Of a DNA stretch of 64,000 nucleotides, positions 38,730 through 59,880 are shown piece after piece. Both the position numbers and the translations under genes were made by a program. Position 1 is the first letter of the stretch; every line of letters begins with the position of its first letter. Under the pieces are notes generated by a model that saw only the letters and a program-made list of their open reading frames with translations, did not search any database and had not been told where the DNA came from. This stretch comes from Enterobacter sp. JUb54 (GTDB lineage: Bacteria; Pseudomonadota; Gammaproteobacteria; Enterobacterales; Enterobacteriaceae), in NCBI RefSeq assembly GCF_014298075.1, contig NZ_CP060418.1, forward strand, positions 744,001-808,000, read 5' to 3'.

Positions 38730-38762
38730 GGTGATCCTCCTCAGCAACCGGGCATGGCGCGG

Positions 38763-42562: not shown

Positions 42563-43297
42563 TCACTTCTCATTCAAGAGTTTTACCAACTGGTTAATGC
42601 CGTCCAGCGATTTTTGCCAGTCAGGCATCCCATCCCAGCATGCCGGAGCGGGAGTGGTTTTGACATACAGGGTCGGAACATCATTAATCAAAAAACCGCC
42701 GCTGCGCAGGTAAAAGCCCTGCAGATCGCAAATGCGGCTGTATTTATCCGCCCCTGGCGTCATGAAACTGGCAATTTTTTTCAGGTCCGAGCGGGTGGCT
42801 GCCAGCCCTTTTGCTGAGGTATTACTTTTTATCTCATCAGCTACCTGCGCAATGGTGCCTGCCTCGATAGCGTCATCCAGGTTGACGAATTTACCCTGGC
42901 TTACCCAGCTGGCCAGGTAACCTGTACAGGTTTTGGCCTTTTCAGTGGCACAGTTGAGCGGTGTCAGCAGGCTGGGGCGAAAATCGACCGTCGCCAGCCC
43001 GGATTGTTTCACCTTTGTCAGGTTGCTGACTTCCTCATTAATCAACGTGTTGCAACTCTTGCCGTCATAGTCGGTATTCTGGCAAACCAGCAGGGCAATC
43101 GTAGGGATACTGGCTATCTGACAGGCCATTTTATCCTCACCTTTGGGCGTGGCGGAGCAAAAGGTGGAGTAAGGAATATTGGGTTTAATTTTGTCTATTT
43201 TGGCGGCTGCCTGAGAGAAATCATCGGCATAGCTGTTACTGACAGAGGCAAACAGCAGTGCGGCGATGCTGGCAGGCAAAAGGTACCGGGTATTCAT
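42563..43297 (-). CDS. Secreted Cys-containing protein of the island, unknown function
   Basis: A 244-aa exported protein. 'MNTRYLLPASIAALLFASVSN' followed by 'SYADD' is a clear Sec signal peptide with an Ala-type cleavage site. The mature part has eight cysteines (in 'YSTFCSATP', 'KMACQIAS', 'LLVCQNTDYDGKSCN', 'LNCATEKAKTCTGY', 'SRICDLQ', 'PACWDGM'), suggesting disulfides in the periplasm or outside. AGGAG 8 nt upstream selects this start; the ATGA overlap with the glycosyltransferase stop shows translational coupling. It is the last gene of the island array. I do not recognise a domain. Confidence 0.8.
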   Translation of the reverse strand: MNTRYLLPASIAALLFASVSNSYADDFSQAAAKIDKIKPNIPYSTFCSATPKGEDKMACQIASIPTIALLVCQNTDYDGKSCNTLINEEVSNLTKVKQSGLATVDFRPSLLTPLNCATEKAKTCTGYLASWVSQGKFVNLDDAIEAGTIAQVADEIKSNTSAKGLAATRSDLKKIASFMTPGADKYSRICDLQGFYLRSGGFLINDVPTLYVKTTPAPACWDGMPDWQKSLDGINQLVKLLNEK

Positions 43298-46032
43298 CGT
43301 GTTGCTCCTGTGACTGAGGTTTCGGGGAAAGTGCCAGTCGTAGGGCTGGCGGCACGTTGTGCATGATGAGTGCAAATGGCTTTGATCACCTGCTTAACGA
43401 GAATATCGGGTGCAGTATCTGGGGAGGATAAAGCAGGGCTAATCGCCAGTTGCTCCGGCTGTGTCACCACGCGCAGCGCTTCGCCATACATTGCATGAAG
43501 CTGCTGCGCGAGCACGGAGTGCTCTACCGGACAAACCATCGTCACGCTACCGTCCCAGGGGGCCGAGTATTTTGCGGGTGGCGGGAAGTGTTGACTAAAA
43601 GCTGTGCCATGGTGAACCGTACGGAGTTGTTGCAACCGCTGGACGTTCTGCGCGTAGTGTGGGTTGGCGGCAATATGTTCTTGCTGGCGACAGTAACCGG
43701 CACTCAGGGGATGATAAAGATGCCAGAGTGGGCGCCCTGTGTCGCGGGTGAAGGCCGCCGTGCCCAGCACGCTGGCCTTGTGGAACCAGGCATTATCCTC
43801 TCCCCCCCAACCCACAAACGTTTCATCCATACCGCCGTGGCGGAGGACAAAATCGGTCCGTGCCAGCACGGCTCCTCCCTGTGCGCCACTGCGTTGCTGG
43901 AACACCGGCGAACAGGTTTCTGGTCGACGTTGTTCAGCCTGCACCTGCAGGCTCTCTTCTTCGCCGAGGAAATTGATCGTACTCCAGGGGATCAGGCAGT
44001 CGAGTTGCCGCGCCTCGCACTCCTGCCAGGCCAGGCGGATAAAATCTTGCGGCAGCAGTAAATCCGCATCCAGCCACAATAGGTAGCGGGTATGCACAAA
44101 AGGTAAGGCGATATTCAGAGCCCGCGCTTTGCTAAATGGCGATGATGTACAGGCGAACAGGTAGTCGTCGGCAAGCTTCGTCGCAACGGCCTGCGCATGA
44201 GGCTGGTTATCCAATTCGACAACCAGCACGCGGCGCACGTCAGGCTGCTGTTTAAGCCCAGCCAGCATACATTGCAATGCCGCTATCCGGGTTTTTCCGG
44301 CGAACGGCACTATAATGCTCACACCATCATCGAGCTCTGCGGGCATCGCCAGATGTGGCACGGTGGACGTGTTACGAAGTAGCGGCGCCCGTGGATGCAG
44401 AGAAGGTGGTGTGTTACCCAACAGCGTCTGTATCGCCGGTAACCAGAATTGCGGCCATTGCTCGGCAAAATCCCAGTGTTGTTGTAGCCAGGCCCGGTTT
44501 TGCAAGCCGCGCTCGCGCAGGAGCTGGGGGCCAAGTGTTATCAGCTCGCTGAGGATATTTTCCAGCGTATCCAGGCTGGCGCAAACAAAAGGGGAGCTGG
44601 CGTCAGGGGCACACTGCTGTAAAACGGCGGCAATATCGGGTTTCAGCCCTAAACCATTGACCACCACAGCACCTGCCGCCAGGCCTTCCAGGCTGTTGCG
44701 ATGGTAGCTGCCGGTGACACACTCATCGATAACGATATGCGCGCGCCGTTTCATCTCCATCGATTGTGTAAAATCGACCTGCCCGGCTTCCAGCGTCAGT
44801 AGACGAAGTGGATAGCGCTGTGCCAGTCGCGTCAGGATAGCCATTGTTCGTTGGTAACCTTTGCCGTGCCAGTACAAACGATGATTGGCCGGGTACTCGT
44901 CATGTTTCACACTCGGCGTGTAAGCAATGGTCACCGTGGCCTCTTTCTCGGCATCGTCAAAGAGCGGATTGCACAGTGGCATCGGGTTCGGTACCGCCCG
45001 CCACTGTGCGAACTCTTCCAGCGAGGCCTGATATTGCGCTACCACCAGCCCGGGCATGCCGCGCGCGACAAATTGTCGATCGACATTGCTGATGTAATTA
45101 TGGGCGAGGGTGATCACCGGTTTATTCGCCAGCAATGCCTTGTGCTGCGGCGCGGTAAAACCGTTATGCACGATCAGCAGATCGGCTGCCTCCAGCAGGG
45201 CGCAGGCAATATCCGGCTGTTTTTCCCACTCCACTTCACGCTCAAACCGCACGCCATTCCCATAGTGGTTTGTCGCCCATACGGTGCGGCACCGATGCGG
45301 GGTGTAATGTTCGATGCATTCGCTCAACAGTTTTGGCACTCCGACAACTGGCGTGGTGGCATAAGAGACGATATTCAGGGATTTAGTGCTTTTCGCCTGG
45401 CGGCCGAAAGCGGAAAGCGACTGGTACGGCAAGGTTTCGACAGCGCTGTGCTGGCTGAGGTTAACCACCTCCACACCATGGCGTGCGGCGGCATCAACCA
45501 GCCGGGCGTATTCCTGGCGGATTCTCGGCAGTTCATGGCTGAGCGAGTGACGCCCCGTTTGTGCGAAGAAGTGGTGGTCGGTGAAATCCATGCCGATAAA
45601 ACCGATGCGTTTAGCGCCCATGAACATTGCCAGGCACGCCGCAACGTAGGTGGAGTTACGGGTGTAAGGCAACGAATGACGGTCGTTTATCTCCACGCCG
45701 CCGTATTGCCCCAGCATGAAACGCACCGTCACCGGATGCGCAATATCCAGTGCAAGATGGCTGAATATCGCTTTCGCCTGTGATTGCTCGATATGCGCAA
45801 AGCGCTCGGGGGTGAACTGATGGCGTGAGTTGAGCACGACCAGGTAATCCGGATGAAATTTACGGCCAATGTCGTTTACGCCAATGGTCAGGTAGTGCTC
45901 CGCGTCGTGCAACTGGTTGAGTGAGTTACCGCAGCCGCACACCAATATGGTTTCGCCGGCGTGGCTCTGATAATAGTCCGCGAAATTTGCCGGCAAGGTG
46001 GGCGGTTGAACTAGCGACTGGGCACTTTCCAT
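43294..46032 (-). CDS. Three-part glycosyltransferase of the island
   Basis: A 912-aa cytosolic protein with three recognisable parts. Residues about 10-210 resemble a Rossmann-type domain of the DUF115/MAF-like kind ('ETILVCGCGNSLNQL', 'IGVNDIGRKFHPDYLVVLN', 'RIGFIGMDFTDHHFF'). Residues about 215-560 resemble a GT-B glycosyltransferase ('LLIVHNGFTAPQHKALLANKPVITL', 'SYHRNSLEGLAAGAVVVNG'). Residues about 590-830 are a GT-A (GT2/GT7-like) domain with 'GVSIIVPFAGKTRIAAL', the metal motif 'LLWLDADLLLP' and 'GWGGEDNAWFHKA'. The ATG at 46032 has AAGGA six nt before it and lies 16 nt after the 2330-aa gene's stop. It could glycosylate island proteins; the acceptor is unknown. Confidence 0.8.
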   Translation of the reverse strand: MESAQSLVQPPTLPANFADYYQSHAGETILVCGCGNSLNQLHDAEHYLTIGVNDIGRKFHPDYLVVLNSRHQFTPERFAHIEQSQAKAIFSHLALDIAHPVTVRFMLGQYGGVEINDRHSLPYTRNSTYVAACLAMFMGAKRIGFIGMDFTDHHFFAQTGRHSLSHELPRIRQEYARLVDAAARHGVEVVNLSQHSAVETLPYQSLSAFGRQAKSTKSLNIVSYATTPVVGVPKLLSECIEHYTPHRCRTVWATNHYGNGVRFEREVEWEKQPDIACALLEAADLLIVHNGFTAPQHKALLANKPVITLAHNYISNVDRQFVARGMPGLVVAQYQASLEEFAQWRAVPNPMPLCNPLFDDAEKEATVTIAYTPSVKHDEYPANHRLYWHGKGYQRTMAILTRLAQRYPLRLLTLEAGQVDFTQSMEMKRRAHIVIDECVTGSYHRNSLEGLAAGAVVVNGLGLKPDIAAVLQQCAPDASSPFVCASLDTLENILSELITLGPQLLRERGLQNRAWLQQHWDFAEQWPQFWLPAIQTLLGNTPPSLHPRAPLLRNTSTVPHLAMPAELDDGVSIIVPFAGKTRIAALQCMLAGLKQQPDVRRVLVVELDNQPHAQAVATKLADDYLFACTSSPFSKARALNIALPFVHTRYLLWLDADLLLPQDFIRLAWQECEARQLDCLIPWSTINFLGEEESLQVQAEQRRPETCSPVFQQRSGAQGGAVLARTDFVLRHGGMDETFVGWGGEDNAWFHKASVLGTAAFTRDTGRPLWHLYHPLSAGYCRQQEHIAANPHYAQNVQRLQQLRTVHHGTAFSQHFPPPAKYSAPWDGSVTMVCPVEHSVLAQQLHAMYGEALRVVTQPEQLAISPALSSPDTAPDILVKQVIKAICTHHAQRAASPTTGTFPETSVTGATR

Positions 46033-46048
46033 CGGCTTTCCTTGTTTC

Positions 46049-49000
46049 TCAGTCAAAAATCACGGGGATATTGTTGATTTGCACCAGCGGTAATTGCTGG
46101 TCGCCGACGGAGCCAAACAGGGTCAGGGAGAAGGACATCCTGGCCGCCGTTGAGGCCTGCAGCGCGGCATGCTGATACCATTGCCAGACTTCCGCTGCTA
46201 TCTGGTCGGCAAGAGGCTGCGGTGACGTATTATTTATCTCCAGAGCGTTGATCATCAGGACCGGGGACTCCACCAGAAGGTCCGAGCCGGGACGCAATGG
46301 CCAGGCATAGTTCACCTGCAAATTAATCACCGGATCGATGCCCAGATTACCCACTTTGGTTAGCGGCGTGATGAGCTGCTGAATCATCTGTTGCAGTACG
46401 CCGAGGCTAATTGCCCCGGCGTGAACCGCTGGCAGGCTATCCCGTTCAATCAGGGGAATCATCACGTCGGGAAAACGCAGCGTATCGGTTTGATAGATAA
46501 ATAAAGTGTTTGTTTTTTCGTCACTCAACAATTCGTCGTTGCGAACGCTCCAGGCGGAGAACTGGATGCTCTGGCAGGTGAGAATAGCCAGAGGTTCCCA
46601 GCGCAGCACCGTGGTGGTGAAGTCCGGTCGCTGTTTTAACGTGCAGTTGATTTGCCACCACTCACCCTGTTTTGTGGCTTTGCTACGGTCTGGTGCCCAC
46701 TGGACATTCCCCGCCAGTTGCAGCGTGGGCCAGATAGCCGGATTTTGCCCGCCGTCATCAGTGCGGCCACGGAGCTGCAGCGTTTTATCGCTGAAACTGA
46801 GGCAAAAGTGATCGATTTCACGCACATTTGCCATCAGTGACATAGGCTGATACCAGTTCGTTGGCCAGTTGGTGGCAATGCCGCTGGTCAACTTGCAGAA
46901 CTCCTGCAGAATCGCGTCGGCATCCGGGGCGGGAGAGCCAGAGCTACTGGACAACTGCAACAGGCTTTCCAGCTTTGGTGCCAGGGCAGGCCAGGCCTCG
47001 GTAAAATGTGCCAGAGCGGCGAAAAGGCCATCCAGGATCGGGCCGGTTTGCTGATGGCTGTTAAGCTTCAGCGGCTGCCGGGCCAGTACGTTACGTTCGA
47101 CGTCAAAATAGAAATCATCCTGATCCTGCAGATCCAGCGAAAGCTGAGTCTGGTAACACCACTGCAACGCCTGGGCGATTTCATCAGCCAGTGAACCAGG
47201 GCTACCGGCGGGGGAATGCATCGCGACGCCCAGACCCTGCTGTGAAGCTAATACCGGCAAGGGAGGCTCAAACGGCAGCGGAATGGGGATATCAACCCTG
47301 CCTGGAGGCGAGGTGAGATCGGTGATCGGCATCGTGAGCTGTGTGGTTTCCGGGAGTACGAATTTTAGCCAGGTACTGGGGATGTAACCTTGCTGCTCCT
47401 CACTCACGGCAAAATCGTGCTGCAGATAGCTGACCTGGTATTCCAGTGGGAGCGAAATAAAGGATTGATCGCCCGGTTTCGCAACTGTCAGCAGGCTGGT
47501 GGCCCATTGCGTGCCGGAAGTCAGATCCAGCGTCACTGGCGTAAACTGATACAGATTGTTGCTATCGCCCGCCTGAAGCGGTGAACCTGCCGCAGGCTGT
47601 TGCAGAATGCCATACAGCTGCGGGGCTTTCTGGGGACTGGTGTCATCGGCGCTCCCATTAACCTCAACCTCGGCTGGGAACTGGACAACCGTCGACACCA
47701 TGTAAGCACTCGACAGGTTTTCCAGCAGCGCCTGCTCCAGCCTTTTCTGCGCGACACTAACATCGCCACCGTTGTCGATATCTTTTTGCAGCACCGACAC
47801 CAGCCCGGAAGGAATAGATTTTGCCAGCAGCTGCTTTGCATGCATCAGCTGGTTGTAACTGGCTGCATCAAGCCTGGCAATCGCCACGCCCATCTGTGGA
47901 GACATCACGGTATCAAAGGCGTTGAAGAAGCTTTTTGCCCAGGCATCCATATCGACGTTGTTGTACTGAACGCCGTCAACGAGGCTGTTACGTGGGCTGG
48001 TATTAAGGGGACGCAGCGCAAAATAGCGTGGATCGTTGGCGAATTGCACAGTGAATCCGAGGCTGCTGGCGAAGCGGACCGACCACAGCTCCTGGGAGGC
48101 ATCGCCGCTACTTCCGACCTGGACCCCGGCGCGCTGCGCCAGTTTGAGCTGGCCTCCCTTACCGTCAATGTTGCAGAAAGCCTGTTCGAAACTGCGGGCA
48201 AAGGGCGTGATATTTCCGCCATCATGTTGTGGACTGGCCTCGGGTGAGAGCTGTGCCAGTAGTGGGTAGGTAACCTCTATGATCTGCTGCAGCTTTTGCG
48301 AAACATTGCTGTCAACGCGAGCGGGATCGCGCCAGGCGCGGGCGCTGACGCCAATCGCCACGATGTCGTGTTCCTGCTGGGCCAGCAGGGTAAACGGAAT
48401 CGTGAAATCCAGCGACCACTGCATTTCGCCGTCGGGTGAGTAATGCGCCGGGCTGCCTGTAGCCTGGGCATTTATATAGTCAAGAATCTGTTGTGCTGCC
48501 GTCAGTAACGGACTTTGCAAATCACCCGGTACTCCCCCCTGAAGCAGGCTACAGGTCAGGGCATATTGGGTTCCACTGTCCGTCAGCTGCTGGCAAATGC
48601 GGCGGTATTTATCCCCCATTCGGCGCCACTGTTCACGTGGGTCGCTGCCTGGAGATGCCACGCTGTCAACGATATCCGGGTTAAAGGCCAGCCGGATTTG
48701 CAGACAGGCGCTTTGTGTGGTGTCCGGCACAAAGAAGAAAGTGCTCTGCAACCCAGGCCATTCTCCCAGCGCGATCAGTGGGTCACTGTAGAGCGGCGTA
48801 AAGCTGTCATTGTGCCCTTCGGTCAGCGGGTTGCCATACATATCACACAGACGAAATGCCAGATTCACCGTCTGGCCGATAAGCGCATAAGGATTTGTGC
48901 CAGGAAGCGCGCTGAACGGCAGAAGTGGCACCTGCTGTTGAAGCTGCCATGTGGCCGCCGGCGAAGTGGTTTCGCCGTTTTCCGTCGGGCCAACCGGCAG

Positions 49001-52000
49001 GCTCCACACCGAACCACGCCACTGCGGGCTGGCTTCAGTAATACGGTACTGCAGCAAATGGTAAAGATGATGCACCGGGATTGTTGCCGTCGGAGAGGTA
49101 TCGCCAGCCGGGGTCCAGCTGGCGGTAAAGCCAATATTTCCTGGTGCAAGCGTGGATTGCCAGACATACAGCGGCGTTCCGGCACTGTCATACGCCCGGC
49201 AGTTCAGGGCAGCGAGATCGTGCTGTGCCGTTATCCAGAGGCTGTTGTGGTATGACGCTAGCACCAGCGCATTGGCAGGCTGGGTGTCAAAATCGACGAC
49301 TATCATAAAATCGGCAGTGCCGGAGGAAGTGCCGTCCACGGCCTGCTGGTTTGGATCATTGGGTGAACGGTTTGACGCCGCGGTATCCGCGAACAGCGAA
49401 TCCGGTAATCCCTGTCCATCGGCAGTCTGGTAATAAAGGTAATAACCTGGCGCCCGCACGACGCTCAGTTCCCAGACGAGCTGCAGGAAATTCTCTACGT
49501 TACTCAGGCGTGCGGTATCGCTATCGGAGGTAAACGTGGCCCGCATCATCGTATGCATCAGGCTAACCTGCGCGACCTGATTCAGGGTCGACAGGTTCAT
49601 TTTCGCCAGCAGCACATCCGGCGAAAGCGTGTCTGATACCCATTCAGATTTACCCGGTGGCAGGTAGAGCAGTCGCAGTGATGCGTGGGAAAGATCGGCG
49701 TTTTGTAGTGCCTGATAAATAAGCTCGCGGGTTGTTTCATCGGTGCCGTTCAATTGATAGATCGGCGCGGTCTTAGCATGGTCTGGTGAAGAGGGCGAGC
49801 CTGGCGTTTTGCCCTGGGGCGTGGCCACCTGCGTCAGCGACAGGCGGATTTGCAGCGAGCCAAATGCATTGACTGGCGCATCGTCCGTATCATCATCGTA
49901 ACTGCTGGCTTCAGGTACTAGGCGTAAGGTGCCACCCGCCAGCGACTGAAGGCGGTTAAGCAGAGGCTGGGGGAAAATAAACAGCGTGCGCAGGGCGTCC
50001 GGGCTCTGCCAGGCCAGGCTGTTTTTCAGTTGATACCCGAGCGGGGCCGCGATAGCGCCGGGCAAGGGTTGAATCAGCAATGTACCGGGGGCGACCGGCG
50101 CGGGTGACGCAGGTGCGGCGTCAAAAATCCAGTGAGGGTCGGGGTTATCCGGTAACGCGGCAGGCACCGTAAACTGAGCTGTGGCGTTCTGTGGGCTTCC
50201 ATTCCCAAAACGTAACCAGTCGACCTCCAGGCCGGGAGTGAAGCTGAGCGTGGCCTGCGCATCTTGCGGGCTGCCGCTGACGGCAAACTGTTGCCCGGAA
50301 AGAACATACAGCGAAGAGGTTGGCAGACTGGTTATGTTGTCTGGCGTTACTATGGGCGGAATGTGAGACGGATCGGGAAGTTGCAGGCCGGACATCAAAT
50401 AGCGTGAACCAAACCCGGCGATGCTCCAGTACGCCAGTTTGTCGAGCAGTTCGCTAAGTTCTTTTGTGGGATTATCTGTGAGCCAGGCGAGATCCTGCGC
50501 ATCCTGAGTGATTAGCGGATTTTGCGCATCCATCCCGGCCAATGTCGCACGTTTGGCCCAGCGGCGGAGTGCGGTATCCTGCTGCTTTTCGTACTGCTTT
50601 GCATCTTCAATCAGGGTCGAGAGGGTGTAGCGCGCAATCATCAGGAAATAATCGCCGAACAAATAGCTGGCCATACTTGGGCCGTCGGGCGGGGTATCTG
50701 ATGCCCGCAGGCTGGCCTTCTGCTTGCCATCCGGGACGGATGGTCCTACCAGGCCGACATTATCAAAATAGATTTTTACCGCTTCCGTGTAGTTATTCGG
50801 GGTCAGATTGAAGCGGGAGAAATCAATGTCTATGCCGCTGGCCTGCAGATGCAATGCGTCAAACATTGGCAGCATAGCCGCCGTATCAAAGGGCGCTTCT
50901 CCGGAACCCAGCCCGCGGAGGACAAAGCGCAGGCTAGAGGCAAAAAAGGCGTTCAGTTTGTCAAGGAACCCATTCCTGCCGCCAAACTCCGGGCCAGGCT
51001 GCGCACTGCCGTTACCGAGCATATCGGCCACCTGTTGCAGCGTGACTGACAGCGGCCGATCTCCGCCGTTATCCGGCGCGAAAGTCAGCAGCCACTTCAC
51101 CAGGCGAATGATCATCTCTTCGTAACCGCTGGCGATCGCGGGAGAAGCCAGCGGTGGCTGGTCTGGCGAAGGGCAATCCATCACCAGCGTGGCAATCAGA
51201 TTGACGACGGGCGGGTGTTGCGCCTGCCACACAACAGTAGGCTGTAAAACAAAAATTACCTCAAGCTCAACCTGCGTTATGTCATCGGCCTGCCAGCGCA
51301 TCCACGGCGCCGGTGTGGCACGAAAGCGCGGAGGTTCCCGGACGTCGTGCAGCGGGCGAAGCGTATCGATCAGTTGGGAACGTTGCAGCGCGGCCAGAGA
51401 TTTAGCACGTGAGAACAACGCCTGCCATTCCTGCGAGTTGTTTGATAATGGACTTAGTCCTGGCGCAAGAGGACCGTTGAGCGAGGCAGGAGAGCCTTTG
51501 CCGATATGAAACGTGTGATGGACAGTTGTGTGGAAAGAAAGATGGATAGTAAAGAACACTACTTTCAGCGATACGCTGACTTTTACCGAAGCGGCAATCG
51601 GGATTATCGTTTGATAACCGCATTCAAAGGCAACGCCAGCGCTGACGCTGAAACTGACCAGCACAGAGGCTTTGATGATAGCCAAATCGACACAGCCCTG
51701 CAGCACGACGGAAATCGATGCGCTGCCGGCGAACCAGTAGTGATCCGGCTTATTGGCTATCGAGCTACCGCTGGCTTTCCATGCCAGCAGACCCTGGAAA
51801 CTGGCTGAGAGATTGACTTCCAGGCTGGCGCTGAGAGGCCCGGCATTGATACTGATCCCGGCCGTGACCGCGACGCCGATACCAAATTCAAGGATAGGGT
51901 TGTAGTTGACGCTTGGCAGCGCGCCGGGGTTATCGCCACTGCGTAATTTGGCAAAATAGAACCCGGCCCAGCCGGTAAGAATATCGAAGGAAACGCCTAT

Positions 52001-53041
52001 CGCGTTATTCGGCGTGACCGGCCAGCCGACGTTAATGCGAAAGTCGCCATTGGTATAAATCCAGGCGGAAAAACCGGGCAGGATGAGAATAAATCCCTCC
52101 AGCGGAATCCGTCTCATACCATAAGGCAGGCTCAGCGCACCGTAGTAGACCCCCAGATTAGGCCCCAGTTTTTGGTAGAGGATTTCAAACAGCAGGCCGC
52201 TGAAAAACGACGGCGGGCTGGTCATCGGAATGCTAATTTCGAGGCCGTACATCGCGGGATCGTTAAACAGCATCCGCAGGCGCAGTTCGCGCAAACGCAT
52301 ATCCGCTGCGATAAACCAATCGCGATCCGGTTGGTAAAATGTTTTTGCCAGCTCGGTAATAATGGTTTCAGGATCGCTACCCACCAGTTGGGTTTCCAAC
52401 TGATTAAAAATGATCTCCATCGGGTTGCCGCTGGCAGGAAGCTTCACCGTAGGACCAACTCGCTGGCCAATCCCAAGATAGTTCAACTCGAACGAGGAGA
52501 TAGAGTTCTGGGCGGGCAACGGGAAGGGGAAATTCACCAGTTGCTCTTTGCTTTTTTCTGGTGTCGGGCTGCCCGTTGCGAGCAGTGTATTACCGCTGCT
52601 GACCGTGGTTTTGATGCGTGCTTTTACCGTCAGGCCGTCGCCTGCGCCGTCATAGCCGATCATCAGGCCGAGAATCGTTATATCCGGTTCAATCGTGATG
52701 TCAAAAGGTCCTGCGTTGTAGTGAGTGCCGAGGTGCAGTTCTTCTGCAAGCGTGAGCTGTAAAAACGAGCTTGTATTGCCAGTGTTGCGATCTGGTGTGA
52801 CCCACAGCGAGGGAATAATCCCCACGCGCATTATCTGCTGCCATGGTCCTGGGGGGATCTCTGGCAAGCCCGTTCCAATCACTGTTTTCAACTGACTACT
52901 GAACAGATCCCAAATATCATTCAGGCAGATAGGCTCGACGGTACTAAGCGAAAACGAGACCGGCCCGCCAGCCACCCGCAGTGCGACGTCCATAGGCACC
53001 TTAAAGGCGCTCCCTGTAATTTTTAGAATGATATCAGTCAT
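46049..53041 (-). CDS. Giant 2330-aa beta-rich protein of unknown function
   Basis: A 6.99-kb uninterrupted gene. There is no signal peptide. Residues about 320-530 alternate hydrophobic and small residues over long strands ('DFRINVGWPVTPNNAIGVSFDILTG', 'LEFGIGVAVTAGISINAGPL', 'SVKVSVSLKVVFFTIHLSF'), suggesting a beta-barrel or beta-solenoid. Later parts contain a helical stretch near 'YLFGDYFLMIARYTLSTLIEDA' and 'GFGSRYLMSGLQLP', then beta-sandwich-like repeats. Linkers are rich in SP/GSP dipeptides. It resembles large uncharacterised DUF6603-like proteins, but I cannot confirm this. Its start has only a weak ribosome site, 67 bp after the 157-aa gene. No catalytic motif is seen. Confidence 0.8.
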   Translation of the reverse strand: MTDIILKITGSAFKVPMDVALRVAGGPVSFSLSTVEPICLNDIWDLFSSQLKTVIGTGLPEIPPGPWQQIMRVGIIPSLWVTPDRNTGNTSSFLQLTLAEELHLGTHYNAGPFDITIEPDITILGLMIGYDGAGDGLTVKARIKTTVSSGNTLLATGSPTPEKSKEQLVNFPFPLPAQNSISSFELNYLGIGQRVGPTVKLPASGNPMEIIFNQLETQLVGSDPETIITELAKTFYQPDRDWFIAADMRLRELRLRMLFNDPAMYGLEISIPMTSPPSFFSGLLFEILYQKLGPNLGVYYGALSLPYGMRRIPLEGFILILPGFSAWIYTNGDFRINVGWPVTPNNAIGVSFDILTGWAGFYFAKLRSGDNPGALPSVNYNPILEFGIGVAVTAGISINAGPLSASLEVNLSASFQGLLAWKASGSSIANKPDHYWFAGSASISVVLQGCVDLAIIKASVLVSFSVSAGVAFECGYQTIIPIAASVKVSVSLKVVFFTIHLSFHTTVHHTFHIGKGSPASLNGPLAPGLSPLSNNSQEWQALFSRAKSLAALQRSQLIDTLRPLHDVREPPRFRATPAPWMRWQADDITQVELEVIFVLQPTVVWQAQHPPVVNLIATLVMDCPSPDQPPLASPAIASGYEEMIIRLVKWLLTFAPDNGGDRPLSVTLQQVADMLGNGSAQPGPEFGGRNGFLDKLNAFFASSLRFVLRGLGSGEAPFDTAAMLPMFDALHLQASGIDIDFSRFNLTPNNYTEAVKIYFDNVGLVGPSVPDGKQKASLRASDTPPDGPSMASYLFGDYFLMIARYTLSTLIEDAKQYEKQQDTALRRWAKRATLAGMDAQNPLITQDAQDLAWLTDNPTKELSELLDKLAYWSIAGFGSRYLMSGLQLPDPSHIPPIVTPDNITSLPTSSLYVLSGQQFAVSGSPQDAQATLSFTPGLEVDWLRFGNGSPQNATAQFTVPAALPDNPDPHWIFDAAPASPAPVAPGTLLIQPLPGAIAAPLGYQLKNSLAWQSPDALRTLFIFPQPLLNRLQSLAGGTLRLVPEASSYDDDTDDAPVNAFGSLQIRLSLTQVATPQGKTPGSPSSPDHAKTAPIYQLNGTDETTRELIYQALQNADLSHASLRLLYLPPGKSEWVSDTLSPDVLLAKMNLSTLNQVAQVSLMHTMMRATFTSDSDTARLSNVENFLQLVWELSVVRAPGYYLYYQTADGQGLPDSLFADTAASNRSPNDPNQQAVDGTSSGTADFMIVVDFDTQPANALVLASYHNSLWITAQHDLAALNCRAYDSAGTPLYVWQSTLAPGNIGFTASWTPAGDTSPTATIPVHHLYHLLQYRITEASPQWRGSVWSLPVGPTENGETTSPAATWQLQQQVPLLPFSALPGTNPYALIGQTVNLAFRLCDMYGNPLTEGHNDSFTPLYSDPLIALGEWPGLQSTFFFVPDTTQSACLQIRLAFNPDIVDSVASPGSDPREQWRRMGDKYRRICQQLTDSGTQYALTCSLLQGGVPGDLQSPLLTAAQQILDYINAQATGSPAHYSPDGEMQWSLDFTIPFTLLAQQEHDIVAIGVSARAWRDPARVDSNVSQKLQQIIEVTYPLLAQLSPEASPQHDGGNITPFARSFEQAFCNIDGKGGQLKLAQRAGVQVGSSGDASQELWSVRFASSLGFTVQFANDPRYFALRPLNTSPRNSLVDGVQYNNVDMDAWAKSFFNAFDTVMSPQMGVAIARLDAASYNQLMHAKQLLAKSIPSGLVSVLQKDIDNGGDVSVAQKRLEQALLENLSSAYMVSTVVQFPAEVEVNGSADDTSPQKAPQLYGILQQPAAGSPLQAGDSNNLYQFTPVTLDLTSGTQWATSLLTVAKPGDQSFISLPLEYQVSYLQHDFAVSEEQQGYIPSTWLKFVLPETTQLTMPITDLTSPPGRVDIPIPLPFEPPLPVLASQQGLGVAMHSPAGSPGSLADEIAQALQWCYQTQLSLDLQDQDDFYFDVERNVLARQPLKLNSHQQTGPILDGLFAALAHFTEAWPALAPKLESLLQLSSSSGSPAPDADAILQEFCKLTSGIATNWPTNWYQPMSLMANVREIDHFCLSFSDKTLQLRGRTDDGGQNPAIWPTLQLAGNVQWAPDRSKATKQGEWWQINCTLKQRPDFTTTVLRWEPLAILTCQSIQFSAWSVRNDELLSDEKTNTLFIYQTDTLRFPDVMIPLIERDSLPAVHAGAISLGVLQQMIQQLITPLTKVGNLGIDPVINLQVNYAWPLRPGSDLLVESPVLMINALEINNTSPQPLADQIAAEVWQWYQHAALQASTAARMSFSLTLFGSVGDQQLPLVQINNIPVIFD

Positions 53042-53108
53042 GATCGGCCCATCAGTGAGTGGATGTGGGGATTAGATTCTCTGCAAGTCAGAACGACCAA
53101 ACCTCGGC

Positions 53109-53582
53109 TTACGGGCTAGTCGGCACAGTTTCTACTGAACCGATTTCCACGCCGATGGTCTCCAGGCTCAACACATTGAGGATGTTGATGGGAGTCTGGG
53201 GCGTCATGGTGACGCCAAAGCGGTACTCGCCGCTGGCAGTATTGACCGACAGCACGGTTATCGTGATGGCGGCAGCCAGAATGCCGTTTAGCGCATCTTT
53301 GATGTTTTTGATGACCAGCGGCGAGTCCGGGAGCTTGTTGATCATATCCCCCAGATCCTTCGAGGTCAGCGGCACGCCAAAGGTGTCTTTTAGCCAGTCG
53401 AGAAAGTTATTGATACTGCCCAGCGTCACCGGCTGCGCGAGCTGGAAGTTAATCCCTTTCTTGACGTTATCGATATCCTGGCTGCTGATCGCCACCGATT
53501 GCCCGTTGATAAGAAAGGAGCTGCTGATCGCTACCGTAATAGGATTTGTGGGAGGAGAACCCACCACCGCCAATCTAGTCAT
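53109..53582 (-). CDS. 157-aa island protein, unknown
   Basis: A small protein without a signal peptide. A beta-type start ('NPITVAISSSFLINGQSVAISS') is followed by a helical middle ('INNFLDWLKDTFGVPLTSKDLGDMINKLPDSPLVIKNIKDALNGILAA') and a beta end ('ITITVLSVNTASGEYRFGVTM'). The helix 'FLDWLKDTFGVPL' resembles 'VMSWLNQKYGLAL' of the 98-aa neighbour, perhaps a shared domain. AGAGGA lies about 7 nt before the ATG at 53582, which overlaps the preceding stop by 8 nt. It may be a small companion of the giant proteins; function unknown. Confidence 0.75.
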   Translation of the reverse strand: MTRLAVVGSPPTNPITVAISSSFLINGQSVAISSQDIDNVKKGINFQLAQPVTLGSINNFLDWLKDTFGVPLTSKDLGDMINKLPDSPLVIKNIKDALNGILAAAITITVLSVNTASGEYRFGVTMTPQTPINILNVLSLETIGVEIGSVETVPTSP

Positions 53583-53871
53583 CTTGCGTTCCTCTTGTGG
53601 TTGAAGGGGTACTGCCGGTTGTATCGGACTGGCGAATGACAATCCGAATCTGAGTCACGGTAAAACGGCTGCCTGAAAGCGGCTGCCAGTCGCCCTCGAC
53701 GTCAATGCTTTGCGGTAGCGGCGCGTCATCGGGCAATTTATTGACTGCTTTTTGCCATAGGGCGACCACCGAACGGCTCCAGCCAGCCAGCGGCAACAGC
53801 GGTAAAGCGAGGCCGTATTTCTGGTTTAACCAACTCATCACGTCGTTGACGACGTGGGATGTTAACTTCAT
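53575..53871 (-). CDS. 98-aa island protein, unknown
   Basis: A small protein starting 'MKLTSHVVNDVMSWLNQKYGLALPLLPL', mostly helical for 55 residues, then a beta part 'GSRFTVTQIRIVIRQ' and a Thr/Ser/Asp-rich tail. A near-perfect AAGGAGG five nt before the ATG at 53871 decides the start; an ATG eight codons earlier overlaps the 1201-aa gene's stop as ATGA but has no ribosome site. No known domain recognised. Confidence 0.75.
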   Translation of the reverse strand: MKLTSHVVNDVMSWLNQKYGLALPLLPLAGWSRSVVALWQKAVNKLPDDAPLPQSIDVEGDWQPLSGSRFTVTQIRIVIRQSDTTGSTPSTTRGTQDD

Positions 53872-53891
53872 CGCTGCCTCCTTCTTTCCAC

Positions 53892-56800
53892 TCATGGGCT
53901 TTTTTTCTGCGGCTGCGCACTGAGAAAACAGGCCAGATTATTGGTATTGGTTGCGACTTTTTGTCCCGGCGTTACGGCCCCAGCGAACACCAGAAAATCA
54001 ATCAGTACGCCAGGTGGGAAGCGATAGCCGAAGACGCTGAGCTGAATGTTATTGAACAGAAAGGCGTACACCGTCTGCTGTTTATCTTTGAGATCCACTT
54101 TCAACAGATTTGCTGCACCGAACGTGGTCTTCAGGATCCCTTCGAGTTCGAAACCGCCTGCACCTGCCGAGAGCTGTGGGAGTTGAACAAACAACGCAGC
54201 CGCGTCGTTATCCGGCACCGTCGCTGAAGGCCCCCAGCCAAGGATGACCTTGGCGTTAAGACGGGCGTTGGCCCCTAGCGCGCCCAATGAGCCGAGCTGC
54301 ATGTCATATTCCAGGCCATATCGAGCGGAGCTGGTGGCGTAGGAGACCGGCAGGGTGGCGGCGGGTCGCGGTGGCTCGGGTGAAGCGAGAGGTGGCAATG
54401 CGCCAGCAGTGGGCAGATGGCCTTCCAGTTGCAGAATATTGACGGTTGTCGCCCCCAGCGCGCTGGCGTTGAGCGGCTTGCCGTCGGTTGCGCTCAGGAA
54501 ACGCGAAAACTTTAGCGGGATGCTGTAAAGCAGGCTGTCGGGGCGGATAGCCTCATTTTTTGGCTGCACGTTCAGCGTGCTCATATCCAGGGTGACTTTT
54601 TTACTGTCAGAAATACAGTTGCCGGCAGCATCTAGCGTGAACTCAATGTGGGTTGTCAGTCCCGAAATAGGCAGGCCGGTGTTCTCCTGCCCGTAGGAAA
54701 AAAGATCCAGTTCACCGCTGATGGGGAAGGGGGTGGCGTTGAACCACAATTGCCCGCCAAGCGCAAACTGAGCTTTGACGCATGTCCTCATGGTCGGACT
54801 GCCGCTCGGCGTGCTGCTCACCGGTACCAGCGAGGCATTGTCAAACCGGATAGTTTTCACCACGTAGGTGGCGTCATTACTGGCTGGAACGATGTCGTAG
54901 ATAAAGCCATTATCACTGGTAAACACCACCCTGCCGACGCCGTCACTGGTGGTCTGGTATTTCCCTTTAATGCTCAGTGTATTAGGGTTGCTCGCCGTCG
55001 CAGGCGAGGGGTGAGAGCGCAAGGCAACATTGCGGCTGAACAGTTGGTTCAGCGTCAAACCTACGGTGGTATTGAATTGTGCTACAGCCGAGTGGCTGAA
55101 CACGACAATTAACGTTTCCACTTCATAGTCAACCACCTCCTGTTGCACCGCAGGGCTGGGTGGCGAGCTGTTTTCGTCATAAAAAATCACGCCAAAAAGC
55201 GATGACTTTTTGATATCCAGCTGGGCAGGAGATGCGCGGTGATCAAACATATTGCCCTGGATACCAACATGGTGGGCTCTCAGACCCCCGTTGATACCGC
55301 CGAGCAGCATTTGCAGGTCTGGCGGCATTCCGTTGCCATTGATGGCCGCGTTGAAAAACAGCACGCCGGTCCAGGCACAGTCATTCACTATGCGGTTGAA
55401 GTTTTCAAACGGGTTGTCTGGCGCATGAGCCTGGCTGCGGGCGAAGTCGATGGCCTCTATTAACGAGCCTGACACTTTGGCGGGGTCAGTGTTGTAACGT
55501 TGCGCGCCGGTCCACAGCGTGTGTTGTTGACACAGCTCTGCCAGCGTGGCGGTGGTGTTGAATTTAAACACCATAATCGTTTGATGCTCAGAGGTGCTGG
55601 GATCCTGTTCGCCAAAGCCCATATTGAACTGGAAGCCGCCGAGCCATGTCGTGCTGTCAAAAGCCCAGTCATCTCCCGGCACGGTGACGACATAAAAGAG
55701 CTGATTTTGCGTCAGGGTCAATGCCAGGTCGGTTGGCACGCGTGACGGTGAACCTTTCGATGAAAAACGCAGGAAGCTCTGTGGCTCAGGCGGGCTGGCG
55801 GCAGAGTGAGCCTCTTCCATTGACAGCGTCAGGCTGCGCAAGCTGCCCTGTTCATCGATATTAAATAATAAGCTTTGTGGCGTGGTGGCGCTGCGTAATC
55901 CTGGGTCGGCTTCGGTTGTGTTTTGCGGCATGAAAATCGGCCCGCCAGACTGTTCAGTTAGCATTCCGTGGCGCACGGCGCCGATGACCGTCGCCTCAAA
56001 ACGCATAAGATCGGTTCCGCTCCCGGCCAGGCTTTCATCAAGTCCGCCATAGGGAACCCAGGGGAATAGCACGCTGGTGGTGAATGTTTCCAGCAGGACA
56101 TCAATAGCTATTGGAAATGCGGCCCCGGCAATATCACCGAAAAAAGGGGCGGAAGCTGGCTGGCCGTAATATCGCGCCTCGGCGGGCAGGGAATACCACT
56201 GCGCCCACGAGGTTGTATAGGTCGCGTCGAGAATATCCCTGGCATCATGGGCGAGAGCATCCGGCGTGAGCTGGAGCGAAAAGGCCCCCGCTCGTGCAGG
56301 TTGATCGGCCACAAATCGAAGGATGTCGTCGCTGTTAATGCGAAAATATTCGCGGGTAAACAGCCCAGGCATGACCTGTAACGTGATGGTGGTTGACGGG
56401 GACTGGACTCGTGTCACCCGGTAATCACCGATCGGAGAGAGATAGAGTTCTCCGGGGGAAGGGGGGGATGAGACGACAGGGCGCCATGAGAATGCAAATC
56501 CTGCCCCGACGGTATCGGGGGCGGGTGTCTCCGAGGCCCACGGATCGACAGGCTGAAACCGCAGCGTTGCCCCGTCGTTGGCGTAGAAATAATCAGATTT
56601 CAGCAGAGAGGCCTGGTTTTGCCAGCTGATTTTTCCGATCCTCCCCGTCGTGTCGAGTTGAAAGCGTGTGGCGCTGGTCTGGCGTGGCAGCAGCGGATTA
56701 AGCCAGATCTCAAACGCGCAGTAACTTCCGGGCTGGAACGGCGTGGGGTCGTAGAGTGGATAAGCAAGCGTCTTATTCAGTTGCGTACCGGGTACGTAAT

Positions 56801-57497
56801 GAAAATCCCCGCCAAAGTTGCTCAGCAATTGTGGGATGTTTAAGCCCACGGAGAAATTAAAGCTGCCGGCCGCGGGGCCATCCAGCCAGATATTGACCAA
56901 CCAGCCTTCGCTACGGTAGCCCAGTGTCTGGGGGACCTGATAATACTGCAGGCCAATCAGATCGGCATCGCCGGGGTTACTGGTGCTCAACTGCAGCGAC
57001 GGATAGCCGTTCTCGACGATCAACGCCAGCGGTAATCCGCTCTGCATGGTCAGGGATAAGCCTGACCAATTAAACTGAGATTCGTTAGTGACGACATCGA
57101 GTTGCCCCACTTTTTGTGAGTAAATGCAGGGGAGAGCGGCCGTGATGGCGTCCTGTTGGGTCAACCATAGGATATTGTGCGCCACGACAGATGAACCTGA
57201 CAGCGGAGGAAACCCTTTTCGTGCGGCACGAATAAAGGCTGGGGCCTGCTGCGGGTTAATGGTCTGCGGAGTGAAAAAATACCAGCCTGAAATTGAGTCC
57301 CAACTGCTTTGTAAGGTCACCTCCGGGGCGCTTGCCGCTGCCGTTTTCTTTTTTCGTGTTTTTGCAAGCGAACTGCCGCTAGTGGCCGTCAAAAAATAAA
57401 CCCACAGCGGGCTGCCGTTGGCTTCTGACGATCCCGGCGCAGCAATCAAATAAAGCCCAGGATATATCTCAGGTAAGGGGCTGGTGACGCTCGACAT
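53892..57497 (-). CDS. 1201-aa beta-rich protein of unknown function
   Basis: A large protein with no signal peptide or convincing membrane helix. The N-terminus ('LPEIYPGLYLIAAPG', 'PLWVYFLTATSG') is followed by a Lys-rich loop (KTRKKKTAAAS) and many beta-strand-like segments ('GWYFFTPQTI', 'LPLALIVENGYPSLQLS', 'SARYGLEYDMQLGSLGALGANARLNAKVILGWG'). It shares with the 2330-aa protein the frequent SPP/GSP/ASP linkers and overall composition, suggesting related architecture. I chose the ATG at 57497; AGGAG lies 10 nt upstream. It follows the third small paralog by 42 nt. Function unknown. Confidence 0.78.
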   Translation of the reverse strand: MSSVTSPLPEIYPGLYLIAAPGSSEANGSPLWVYFLTATSGSSLAKTRKKKTAAASAPEVTLQSSWDSISGWYFFTPQTINPQQAPAFIRAARKGFPPLSGSSVVAHNILWLTQQDAITAALPCIYSQKVGQLDVVTNESQFNWSGLSLTMQSGLPLALIVENGYPSLQLSTSNPGDADLIGLQYYQVPQTLGYRSEGWLVNIWLDGPAAGSFNFSVGLNIPQLLSNFGGDFHYVPGTQLNKTLAYPLYDPTPFQPGSYCAFEIWLNPLLPRQTSATRFQLDTTGRIGKISWQNQASLLKSDYFYANDGATLRFQPVDPWASETPAPDTVGAGFAFSWRPVVSSPPSPGELYLSPIGDYRVTRVQSPSTTITLQVMPGLFTREYFRINSDDILRFVADQPARAGAFSLQLTPDALAHDARDILDATYTTSWAQWYSLPAEARYYGQPASAPFFGDIAGAAFPIAIDVLLETFTTSVLFPWVPYGGLDESLAGSGTDLMRFEATVIGAVRHGMLTEQSGGPIFMPQNTTEADPGLRSATTPQSLLFNIDEQGSLRSLTLSMEEAHSAASPPEPQSFLRFSSKGSPSRVPTDLALTLTQNQLFYVVTVPGDDWAFDSTTWLGGFQFNMGFGEQDPSTSEHQTIMVFKFNTTATLAELCQQHTLWTGAQRYNTDPAKVSGSLIEAIDFARSQAHAPDNPFENFNRIVNDCAWTGVLFFNAAINGNGMPPDLQMLLGGINGGLRAHHVGIQGNMFDHRASPAQLDIKKSSLFGVIFYDENSSPPSPAVQQEVVDYEVETLIVVFSHSAVAQFNTTVGLTLNQLFSRNVALRSHPSPATASNPNTLSIKGKYQTTSDGVGRVVFTSDNGFIYDIVPASNDATYVVKTIRFDNASLVPVSSTPSGSPTMRTCVKAQFALGGQLWFNATPFPISGELDLFSYGQENTGLPISGLTTHIEFTLDAAGNCISDSKKVTLDMSTLNVQPKNEAIRPDSLLYSIPLKFSRFLSATDGKPLNASALGATTVNILQLEGHLPTAGALPPLASPEPPRPAATLPVSYATSSARYGLEYDMQLGSLGALGANARLNAKVILGWGPSATVPDNDAAALFVQLPQLSAGAGGFELEGILKTTFGAANLLKVDLKDKQQTVYAFLFNNIQLSVFGYRFPPGVLIDFLVFAGAVTPGQKVATNTNNLACFLSAQPQKKSP

Positions 57498-57539
57498 AAA
57501 TGGCAAGCTCCTCAAGTGTTGCTATGTGTAGGGAAAAAA

Positions 57540-57905
57540 TTACGGTAAGCTAATAGCTTTAATATATTTCCCGGCATTACATACTACTGCGCCGAGATGA
57601 CTCGCGTCTTTCCAGTAAAGATATATTTGTATTGAGATGGCACTAACGTCTTCTGGAATGTCAATATTCACAGTTCCTGCATATTGCGAGCCGCTGCTTG
57701 CAGGATACATTGTCAATATATTATTGCCCAATCCTAATCCGCCTTTGGGTGGGTTAAGTTGATTGTAAAAAGCAGGGTAATTAGCAGGGGGCAACGGTAT
57801 CCATTGAAAACTACCGCTGGTGTTGGGCAGTTTTATAAAATCGCCATTATTAATGCTGAACATTAACGACACGCCGCTGGTGTTGAATGTATAAACATTT
57901 GCCAT
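57540..57905 (-). CDS. Small beta-sandwich-like paralog 3 (121 aa)
   Basis: One of three tandem paralogs. Shared pattern, here as 'YTFNTSGVSLMFSINNGDFIKL', then a Pro-rich segment with Phe-x-Asn, 'GLGLGNNILTMYPASSGSQY', 'NIDIPEDVSAISIQIYLYWKDASHLGAV' and a short tail. It is almost entirely predicted beta, with no signal peptide and no cysteine near the N-terminus. A long G-run just before the ATG provides the ribosome site. It is the nearest of the three to the 1201-aa gene. I do not recognise the family. Confidence 0.8.
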   Translation of the reverse strand: MANVYTFNTSGVSLMFSINNGDFIKLPNTSGSFQWIPLPPANYPAFYNQLNPPKGGLGLGNNILTMYPASSGSQYAGTVNIDIPEDVSAISIQIYLYWKDASHLGAVVCNAGKYIKAISLP

Positions 57906-57943
57906 GCCCCCCCCTTTTACTGCATTCAGTTACTGAGGTGTTT

Positions 57944-57970
57944 ACGCCTGAATGAATATTATTCAGGCGT
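57944..57970 (-). terminator. Stem-loop between small paralogs 2 and 3
   Basis: ACGCCTGAAT (57944-57953) pairs perfectly with ATTCAGGCGT (57961-57970) around a 7-nt loop, between the stop of the 122-aa gene and the start of the 121-aa gene. With no T-run on the minus strand it looks like an mRNA-processing or partial-termination element. Confidence 0.6.
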
Positions 57971-58060
57971 GGTGTTTTCGGCGTAAATGATTAATCTAGG
58001 GCTGTGCTTTCAGGTGGTTAATTTGTTAAAAATAATATTAATTTAATGAATGCACTGAGT

Positions 58061-58429
58061 TTATGCGAGGTTAGCTGGAGATACCTGGATAAACTGGCCG
58101 CCATTCAGTGCTGCGAAAGCGACATTTTCGGCGTCTTTCCAGAACAGATACAGCTGCAGTGAACTGACCGTAACTTCGGTCGGAATATTGAGGGTGAAGT
58201 TGGCGCTGTGGCTCGGCCCGGAGGTCGATGGGTAGAGGGTAATCGTGTTCGGGCCAAGGCCTAGCTGGCCGTTGCCAGGGTTGATATTATTGACAAACGG
58301 AGGCTGAGTCGAGGGAACACTTGGCACCCAGGTGGTACTGTCTGCCGGGTTTACGGACAGGAAATTGCCATTGTTTACGCTTACTGAAATGGCGACACCT
58401 GATGCATTGAAAATATATGCGTTTGACAT
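58061..58429 (-). CDS. Small beta-sandwich-like paralog 2 (122 aa)
   Basis: The middle paralog: 'YIFNASGVAISVSVNNGNFLSVN', 'PPFVNNINPGNGQLGLGPNTITLYPSTSGPSH', 'LNIPTEVTVSSLQLYLFWKDAENVAFAAL', 'GGQFIQV'. It shares the NNGxF, W-P, FVNN, GQLxLGxN, SxSGP, IPxxV and YLFWKDA positions with the other two. No signal peptide. About 130 bp of AT-rich sequence and a hairpin separate it from the next copy. Confidence 0.82.
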   Translation of the reverse strand: MSNAYIFNASGVAISVSVNNGNFLSVNPADSTTWVPSVPSTQPPFVNNINPGNGQLGLGPNTITLYPSTSGPSHSANFTLNIPTEVTVSSLQLYLFWKDAENVAFAALNGGQFIQVSPANLA

Positions 58430-58556
58430 GAGATAATTACCTTGCTATCAGCGGTTGAGTGTTGATCCGGGTGCGCCTTTCTGCGCCGTAGTTTATATTT
58501 ACTACAACATGAGAAAATATATTTAATCAGGCTTAAACTTCACACTGATCAGGCCA

Positions 58557-58588
58557 TTGACTAACTAGGATTAATCCCAATTAGTCAA
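58557..58588. terminator. Imperfect 32-bp palindrome between small paralogs 1 and 2
   Basis: TTGACTAACTAGGATT (58557-58572) faces AATCCCAATTAGTCAA (58573-58588) with only two non-Watson-Crick pairs. It lies in the 204-bp gap between the 158-aa and 122-aa genes; a partial terminator, processing site or regulator-binding palindrome. Confidence 0.55.
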
Positions 58589-58633
58589 CATAAGTAAAAA
58601 CTATAGGAGTAAAAATTATTTTTGCAAAATAAA

Positions 58634-59110
58634 TTACAAATTAATTTTTATCTGACTGCCTGCTGGATGAGAGGGGGATGTCATCTTGTTGTTTTCTAAT
58701 GGATACTGAATGGCAGAGACGGCAGTTAATAATGTGCTTGTGATTGCCCTGGTGATGATTACCGCCTGGAAAGGTTGTCCATCCTGCAGAACAATAGCCG
58801 CAACACTGGTAGCATCTTTCCAGAAAAGATAGAGTTGTATTGAGTTTATAGGAATATTTTCGGGGATAGTTATTGTGCAGATTCCTGCCGTGGCTGGACC
58901 GGAAGTTGATGAATAAGCTGTTATTATATTGTCACCCAGCTTCAATTGCCCGGTGGTGGCCGTGGTATTGTTAACAAAAGTGGGCGGGGTAGCGGCTTGA
59001 CCCGCCTGCCATGAAACTTGAGTAGCAGCATTTACTGTAAAAAAACTGCCATTATTAAGGCTGACATAAATATCTGATTTACTTGCATTAAAAACCTCCA
59101 CCTGCCCCAT
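58634..59110 (-). CDS. Small beta-sandwich-like paralog 1 with tail (158 aa)
   Basis: The first gene of the island array. Residues 1-118 are paralogous to the two following proteins ('EVFNASKSDIYVSLNNGSFFTVN', 'PPTFVNNTTATTGQLKLGDNIITAYSSTSGPA', 'TIPENIPINSIQLYLFWKDATSVAAIVL'). The last 40 residues ('AITSTLLTAVSAIQYPLENNKMTSP...') are unique. AGGAG eight nt before the ATG is the best ribosome site of the three. The promoter of the array should lie within about 150 bp upstream. Confidence 0.8.
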   Translation of the reverse strand: MGQVEVFNASKSDIYVSLNNGSFFTVNAATQVSWQAGQAATPPTFVNNTTATTGQLKLGDNIITAYSSTSGPATAGICTITIPENIPINSIQLYLFWKDATSVAAIVLQDGQPFQAVIITRAITSTLLTAVSAIQYPLENNKMTSPSHPAGSQIKINL

Positions 59111-59283
59111 AATGCTGTCTCCTGAATGAGTTAATGGAAATTAGCGGTTTAATAAGATGCTTTCTGCTACGTAAAATAATTCCAACAGGTTACTTATTTT
59201 ATCATATGAGTGGTTTGGTGCTTTTCATGACTGAATCAGTAATATTTTACCATAAATCCTGAATTTCGAAAAAAAAAGGTGGT
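59111..59283 (-). promoter_or_regulatory. Putative promoter region of the island array
   Basis: AT-rich leader upstream of the 158-aa gene. On the minus strand, a TATGATAAAAT-like segment near 59200-59210 could act as a -10 region; I see no convincing -35. This is the only non-coding space upstream of the whole minus-strand array. Confidence 0.35.
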
Positions 59284-59472
59284 GTCCATGATTATTCCGC
59301 GTATTTTTCTGATGATAAGTATGTCTCTCAATGACCTTAAGAAGATACTTTTGAATCATTTATCGTAACAGGGGGCGACCTACCTCAGACTCCTAATGAT
59401 TTCATACAGATTAATCATGTTCCATTAAAAATGAAAATCTATTCTGGTGATCAGAATTTACTGTTTGTATAG
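59284..59472 (+). pseudogene. Possible decayed small gene
   Basis: One frame reads a protein-like sequence ('HDYSAYFSDDKYVSQ', two stops, then 'EDTFESFIVTGGDLPQTPNDF', ending 'GDQNLLFV'). The two in-frame stops near 59329-59338 interrupt it. It ends 21 nt before the small ORF at 59494. It could be the tail of a lost gene; the evidence is only the protein-like composition. Confidence 0.3.
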
Positions 59473-59493
59473 GAATAAAAAGAAATAAAGTTC

Positions 59494-59682
59494 ATGCTGA
59501 AGTGGCTACTGATACCAGCTTTAATTTCGCTGGCATCAGGGGCTTATGTTCAACAAAGCACTGGGAGTGTCCTAATTGAACAACGACCCCGAACCTATCA
59601 TATTGATATACCATCCGGAGCAGTTCCCGGGGATGGGTATCTGATCCGACCCATCATAGTAGACACGCGACTAAGTGAGTAA
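59494..59682 (+). CDS. Small exported protein candidate (62 aa)
   Basis: A 62-aa frame with an N-terminal 'MLKWLLIPALISLASGAYVQ' that looks like a signal peptide, followed by 'YHIDIPSGAVPGDGYLIRPIIVD'. Its ribosome site is weak. It lies on the plus strand between the island array and the IS3-type remnant. It may be a real small secreted protein or the remnant of a longer one; family not recognised. Confidence 0.4.
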   Translation: MLKWLLIPALISLASGAYVQQSTGSVLIEQRPRTYHIDIPSGAVPGDGYLIRPIIVDTRLSE

Positions 59683-59706
59683 ATTCTCAACCAGCGGTGA
59701 TTACTC

Positions 59707-59854
59707 ATGACAAAACCAGCATCAACCAGCAAAACGGCCCGTAAACTGTACACACCCGAATATTCGCGATGAAGCCCTGAAACTCGCTGAACGGGATGAA
59801 GAACTGGCCATGCAACAAAAGGCCGCGACATATTTCGCAAAGCGCCTGAAATGA
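59707..59854 (+). pseudogene. IS3-family orfA remnant, frameshifted and internally deleted
   Basis: The start reads 'MTKPASTSKTARKLYTPEY', the typical N-terminus of an IS3-family OrfA. One extra base just after that Tyr codon (near 59764) breaks the frame. In the shifted frame it continues 'RDEALKLAER' and jumps directly to 'DEELAMQQKAATYFAKRLK' and a stop, the usual OrfA C-terminus. The central helix-turn-helix part is missing. No orfB is present. It marks the right edge of the accessory island. Confidence 0.8.
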
Positions 59855-59880
59855 AAAATCCACGCAATTGCGTGGATTTT
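59855..59880. repeat. Perfect 26-bp palindrome at the right island edge
   Basis: Arms AAAATCCACGCAA and its reverse complement. It directly follows the orfA remnant and lies 59 bp beyond the ychF stop; on the minus strand a T-run follows it, so it may also terminate ychF. It differs from the core of the 41977-42010 palindrome at two symmetric bases only. Confidence 0.9.

Follow-up and report, generated by a model that had tools for sequence, protein, structure and literature searches.

Multi-subunit toxins such as the Tc (ABC) toxin complexes comprise giant proteins that lack classical signal peptides, combine binding parts with an enzyme, and occur patchily on genomic islands. LysM and laminin-G adhesion domains are described for polymorphic toxin systems (PMC3482391). 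Here we analyze a nine-gene minus-strand locus of Enterobacter sp. JUb54, contained in a window of 64,000 nucleotides (contig NZ_CP060418.1, positions 744,001 to 808,000 of the forward strand; coordinates below are window positions). By sequence comparison, its two largest products, A and B, are very divergent members of a widespread two-giant (A plus B) system. The A-B system resembles the Tc and multi-subunit toxins in the features named above and resembles polymorphic toxin systems in its exchangeable effectors and its LysM and laminin-G adhesion domains (PMC3482391). It differs from Tc complexes in that the predicted membrane element is a beta-barrel and the enzyme is a separate gene, and from polymorphic toxin systems in having no recognized delivery domain and in varying between separate genes rather than at C-terminal tips.

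Distant relatives (∼22 to 33% identity) of window A and window B were found by tblastn in 7 and 8 of 72,556 plasmid records, respectively; when A of one relative (L091) was used as the query, the A and B record sets became identical (8 records). A pattern derived solely from B, scanned against genome contigs, yielded 159 confirmed relatives; 80 of these were retained (L020 to L099). Together with L100, from a viral collection, these form a set of 81 loci spanning ∼14 phyla by record titles, including Actinomycetota (L033, L036, L039, L074, L077, L083, L090, and L094) and Bacillota; Clostridium magnum is represented by L081. Relatives of A are gathered in alignment A4 (71 rows). A profile of A detected it in 75 of the 81 loci, where it invariably precedes B on the shared strand; the remaining six loci end less than ∼2.4 kb upstream of B. 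Because the scan searched with B only, this linkage is not built into the set. The two proteins are fused in 2 loci (L085 and L099) and their open frames overlap in 3 (L028, L077, and L094); elsewhere the spacing is less than ∼150 nt (16 loci), 150 to 600 nt (2 loci), or 0.6 to 6 kb (52 loci). Thus, wherever it could be checked, B had A; A-like pieces also occur alone, as one 901-aa A and fragments of 254 and 290 aa. These B-less pieces lie at L114:9257-10129, L115:8503-9267, and L113:9396-12101, in three genomes of a phylum-wide sample that fall outside the class of the window. Distribution is patchy and partly plasmid-borne: among the 398 genomes of that sample (own genome included), A occurs in 6 and B in 3, and B is carried by 2 of 20 genus genomes. 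B relatives reach ∼4500 aa, and window B has a branch length of 3.48 in the B tree. L100 carries A and B on a putatively viral contig with a resolvase-like gene (identified by eye) upstream.

Many loci hold one to three genes between A and B, mostly encoding proteins of 300 to 570 aa. Pfam searches of 49 entries (48 distinct) returned 13 EEP matches, 13 metallo-beta-lactamase (MBL) matches, and one MafB19/Bd3614-like deaminase located between A and B, which was assigned to L031 by elimination; deaminases are likewise effectors of polymorphic toxin systems. Profiles of the two main classes, applied to 75 loci, found EEP in 27, MBL in 22, and both in none (P = 5e-6 assuming independent loci; the loci are related, so the value is a guide only). 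The enzyme lies between A and B in 42 of these 49 loci and upstream of A in the other 7. Searched with loose patterns, the MBL motif HxDxDH is kept in 26 of 27 proteins, and the EEP motifs are kept at similar completeness (GDxN, 28/29; DH, 29/29; N-terminal Asn motif, 26/29). A quick tree of the B barrel domain comprises 64 rows, of which 43 bear an EEP or MBL label (branch support not weighed). On it, the enzyme class switches at least 5 times and phylum labels require 23 changes, against a minimum of 11 and a shuffled value of 33.8; these changes fit exchange and transfer on top of inheritance. A variable enzyme module (EEP, MBL, or deaminase) accompanies a constant A-B core, as separate genes rather than C-terminal domains, with neither EEP nor MBL in 26 of the 75 loci. 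The first-pass annotation of the window had found no nuclease; this holds for the window operon in our searches but not for its relatives, which frequently carry a gene for a nuclease-superfamily enzyme between A and B.

Other neighbors of the core include genes for fn3, collagen-repeat, laminin-G (Laminin_G_3), Kelch, and GT1 or GT2 glycosyltransferase proteins. A C10 peptidase and an S74 tail-fiber-type protein lie upstream in L092, and a NAL1-type protein neighbors the core in L007. LysM occurs inside B of several relatives; Pfam did not find it in window B. A crude hydropathy test detected no signal-peptide-like N terminus among 68 A and 77 B proteins. Paired related small proteins, of which only one member has a signal-peptide-like start, are encoded upstream of A in nine loci (L053 to L055, L058, L059, L082, L089, L096, and L097). 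Structure prediction of window A with AlphaFold gave a mean predicted local distance difference test score of 78.8 and a predicted template modeling score of 0.64, and the model has no convincing known fold. For B, AlphaFold and VIA favor a putative porin-like up-and-down barrel (16/18-strand criterion) at residues 184 to 513, and Foldseek E-values are not significant.

All nine open reading frames (ORFs) of the window locus were confirmed between 42563 and 59110 on one strand, as originally annotated (Table 1). Also in agreement with that annotation, ORF coordinates give overlaps of 8 nt (s98/s157) and 4 nt (glycosyltransferase [GT]/sec), and the distal genes are separated by only 20 nt (A-s98), 67 nt (s157-B), and 16 nt (B-GT). 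Proximal gaps are 42 nt (p1-A), 155 nt (p2-p1), and 204 nt (p3-p2). These spacings and overlaps indicate that the tight operon consists of the six distal genes (A, s98, s157, B, GT, and sec). The proposed tandem paralogy of the three proximal genes stands, with p2 and p3 sharing 41% and 38% identity with p1, respectively. A 14-pair inverted repeat between p2 and p1 (57942-57972) is possibly an attenuator within the operon, and G+C content is 0.42 at the operon 5′ end (58001-60000) versus 0.53 to 0.58 within the operon.

Table 1. Genes and predicted features of the A-B locus in the window
Feature	Position	Strand	Description
p3	58634..59110	-	158 aa; small beta-rich paralogue; no signal peptide by eye; no Pfam match at E<=1
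p2	58061..58429	-	122 aa; small paralogue
p1	57540..57905	-	121 aa; small paralogue
A	53892..57497	-	1201 aa; beta-rich core protein; ORF reaches 57515 if TTG start
s98	53575..53871	-	98 aa; small protein, A-B interval
s157	53109..53582	-	157 aa; small protein, A-B interval
B	46049..53041	-	2330 aa; giant core protein
Porin-like beta-barrel region of B (predicted)	51503..52492	-	residues 184-513
Glycosyltransferase (GT)	43294..46032	-	912 aa; N-terminal sialyltransferase-like stretch; C-terminal GT2 + Glyco_transf_7C
Secreted Cys-containing protein (sec)	42563..43297	-	~244 aa (start codon picked by eye); signal-peptide-like N terminus by eye

Profile libraries recognized only the GT among these products (GT2, E = 2.1e-6; Glyco_transf_7C, E = 4.1e-5; PHROG galactosyl transferase, E = 3.3e-10). 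A, B, s98, s157, and p1 to p3 gave nothing better than E = 0.027 in Pfam, NCBIfam, and PHROG, and sec gave nothing better than E = 0.086 in the same libraries. For A and B in particular, there was no Pfam or PHROG match at E ≤ 1 and a single chance-level NCBIfam match (B, E = 0.81). PADLOC returned no match at E ≤ 0.1 for A, B, GT, s157, or p2. The suggestion that the locus encodes an apparently undescribed multi-protein system is borne out; the system is coherent, and its core co-occurs across phyla. The locus was compared with several described systems. Membership in the Tc (ABC) family found no support, with no Tc, SpvB, VRP1, or Rhs match in window A or B (Pfam, E ≤ 1), in B of four relatives (L002, L003, L005, and L007), or in A of L002 (E ≤ 0.1 for the relatives). 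Sheath, tube, baseplate, and AAA+ components of a contractile injection system or tailocin were absent from the Pfam and PHROG matches of the nine products, in which phage-type PHROG matches were at chance level only (tail fiber, E = 0.16; major head, E = 0.065). The core proteins do not match a known anti-phage defense protein (PADLOC, E ≤ 0.1); the MBL protein of L072 alone matches defense profiles. Compared with the OrfX/P47 proteins of clostridial clusters, A has no Pfam match at E ≤ 1 and its structural match is within chance.

The window copy is a divergent form. Two small proteins fill the A-B interval, likewise in five Bacteroidota loci (L053 to L055, L058, and L059); homology of s98 and s157 to the small proteins of those loci was not demonstrable. 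The p1-p3 family has one relative among the neighborhoods examined, upstream of A in L041 (Xanthobacteraceae), and this shared position supports p1 to p3 as parts of the system. Within the genus, B occurs in the own genome and in G006, where the six distal genes lie at a different chromosomal place and share 78 to 97% protein identity with the window. The ratios of nonsynonymous to synonymous substitution rates (dN/dS) between the two copies are 0.04 to 0.16 for these six genes (s157, 0.04; GT, 0.10; B, 0.11; sec, 0.14; s98, 0.16), indicating that they are under purifying selection and are not chance ORFs; s157 is the most conserved. The comparison covers the six distal genes; p1 to p3 had no match in the 44 kb examined around the G006 operon. 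A 326-aa transposase-like ORF (by eye) occurs twice near the G006 copy (L011:7623-8603 and L013:1357-2337), once directly upstream of A. The region 3′ of ychF is variable between genomes: in G015 and G010 no window stretch of >150 bases beyond ychF was matched within ∼18 kb. The ychF-pth-ychH stretch is 81.5% identical to that of E. coli, in agreement with a host from the E. coli family.

We tentatively favor the reading that the A-B complex is assembled in the cytosol, released, and acts on other cells. Extracellular-type binding modules, apparently intact enzymes, few signal peptides, patchiness, and enzyme exchange together fit such a complex. Cytoplasmic assembly would bring A and B together with small binding proteins, an exchangeable enzyme would join them in most of the loci studied, and the complex would exit by lysis or another non-Sec route to act on another cell. 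There, the porin-like barrel of B could insert into the target membrane or pass material through it, with LysM, FN3, collagen-like, or lectin-like modules giving binding. In the window, the two small proteins occupy the enzyme interval, with GT and the secreted protein closing the operon; GT may decorate a component or act as the enzyme. Several observations weigh against this reading. Three of the six A-positive genomes in the 398-genome sample lack B, so that single, unlinked homologues, which the first-pass annotation had named as a case against a joint system, were seen in part for A; they were not seen for B, which is accompanied by A in 75 of 81 loci and 8 of 8 plasmid records. The 26 loci without EEP or MBL include the five Bacteroidota loci that most closely resemble the window in layout, and the window itself has neither, unless GT counts as the enzyme. 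Signal-peptide-like starts on some enzymes and small proteins (MBL, 2/27; EEP, 5/24; one small-protein cluster, 6/19) fit poorly with one cytosolic assembly line. No secretion gene, lysis gene, or target was identified, nor was an immunity gene, immunity families not having been searched. Foldseek found no PDB match at E ≤ 0.001 for the A or B model, and the VIA root mean square deviation for the predicted B barrel is 5 to 9 Å.

The original proposal of an assembled, possibly glycosylated structure found no firm support: GT and p1 to p3 are outside the conserved core, in whose place many other loci carry an EEP or MBL enzyme or collagen-like or FN3 proteins, and gene order alone is no proof of assembly order. 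In its broader sense, a coat, sheath, or appendage of the producer would have A and B as structural giants, collagen-like, FN3, and LysM surface modules, and decorating glycosyltransferases. Together with the LysM, FN3, and collagen-like modules, several glycosyltransferase genes are consistent with this: GT in both the window and G006; in L069, L071, and L084, a 419-aa GT2-type gene that adjoins a collagen-like gene downstream of B; GT1 upstream in L087; and a GT2-type gene downstream in L080. We nevertheless consider it unlikely, as A and B have no visible signal peptide, a structural coat has no obvious need for alternating EEP and MBL enzymes with kept active-site motifs, and sortase, S-layer, and secretion families were not among the Pfam, NCBIfam, and PHROG matches of the window operon. 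An intracellular defense system that targets phages or other mobile elements and kills through an EEP, MBL, or deaminase effector would suit the patchy, partly plasmid-borne distribution, the lack of visible signal peptides on A and B, the match of the L072 MBL to the LmuA (E = 3.5e-8) and RTasMBL (E = 2e-8) profiles, and one GT4-conflict match below its cutoff. The missing PADLOC matches of A and B (E ≤ 0.1) argue against defense, as do signal-peptide-like N termini on some enzymes and LysM, FN3, collagen-like, laminin-G, and S74 modules that suit extracellular contact, and we regard it as quite improbable. Equally improbable to us is an envelope or lipid-handling role in the producer itself, in which B would form a giant outer-membrane barrel or a soluble beta-groove that carries lipid and A would be its partner. 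Compared with outer-membrane porins, the predicted barrel is embedded in a giant protein, no Sec signal peptide was seen in B by the crude test, and B loci also occur in monoderm phyla.

Two other loci lie at lower coordinates in the window. A glycyl-radical-enzyme microcompartment locus (28117-40695) includes genes for a PduB shell protein, a glycyl radical enzyme and its activase, aldehyde dehydrogenase, propionate kinase, phosphate propanoyltransferase, and an aquaporin-type channel. A methionine adenosyltransferase gene (metK; 24799-26022) is a candidate second copy.

The A-B gene pair occurs in ∼14 bacterial phyla by titles; every locus in which B could be assessed shows the linkage, and none of four profile libraries describes the pair informatively. 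A linkage this steady between giant proteins suggests that the two have a common function. A more specific proposal, which we rate as rather doubtful, is an undescribed class of giant delivery complex in diderm and monoderm phyla: a single-chain porin-like barrel within a cytosol-made giant would be deployed into the membranes of other cells with alternative enzymes (nuclease/phosphodiesterase, metallo-beta-lactamase fold, or deaminase), and in the diverged version held by the window, the place of the enzyme would be taken by small proteins and a glycosyltransferase. Should the barrel and exchangeable enzymes prove to act on other cells, the system would represent a new kind of delivery complex; otherwise, it is still a conserved, undescribed machine made up of defined parts.
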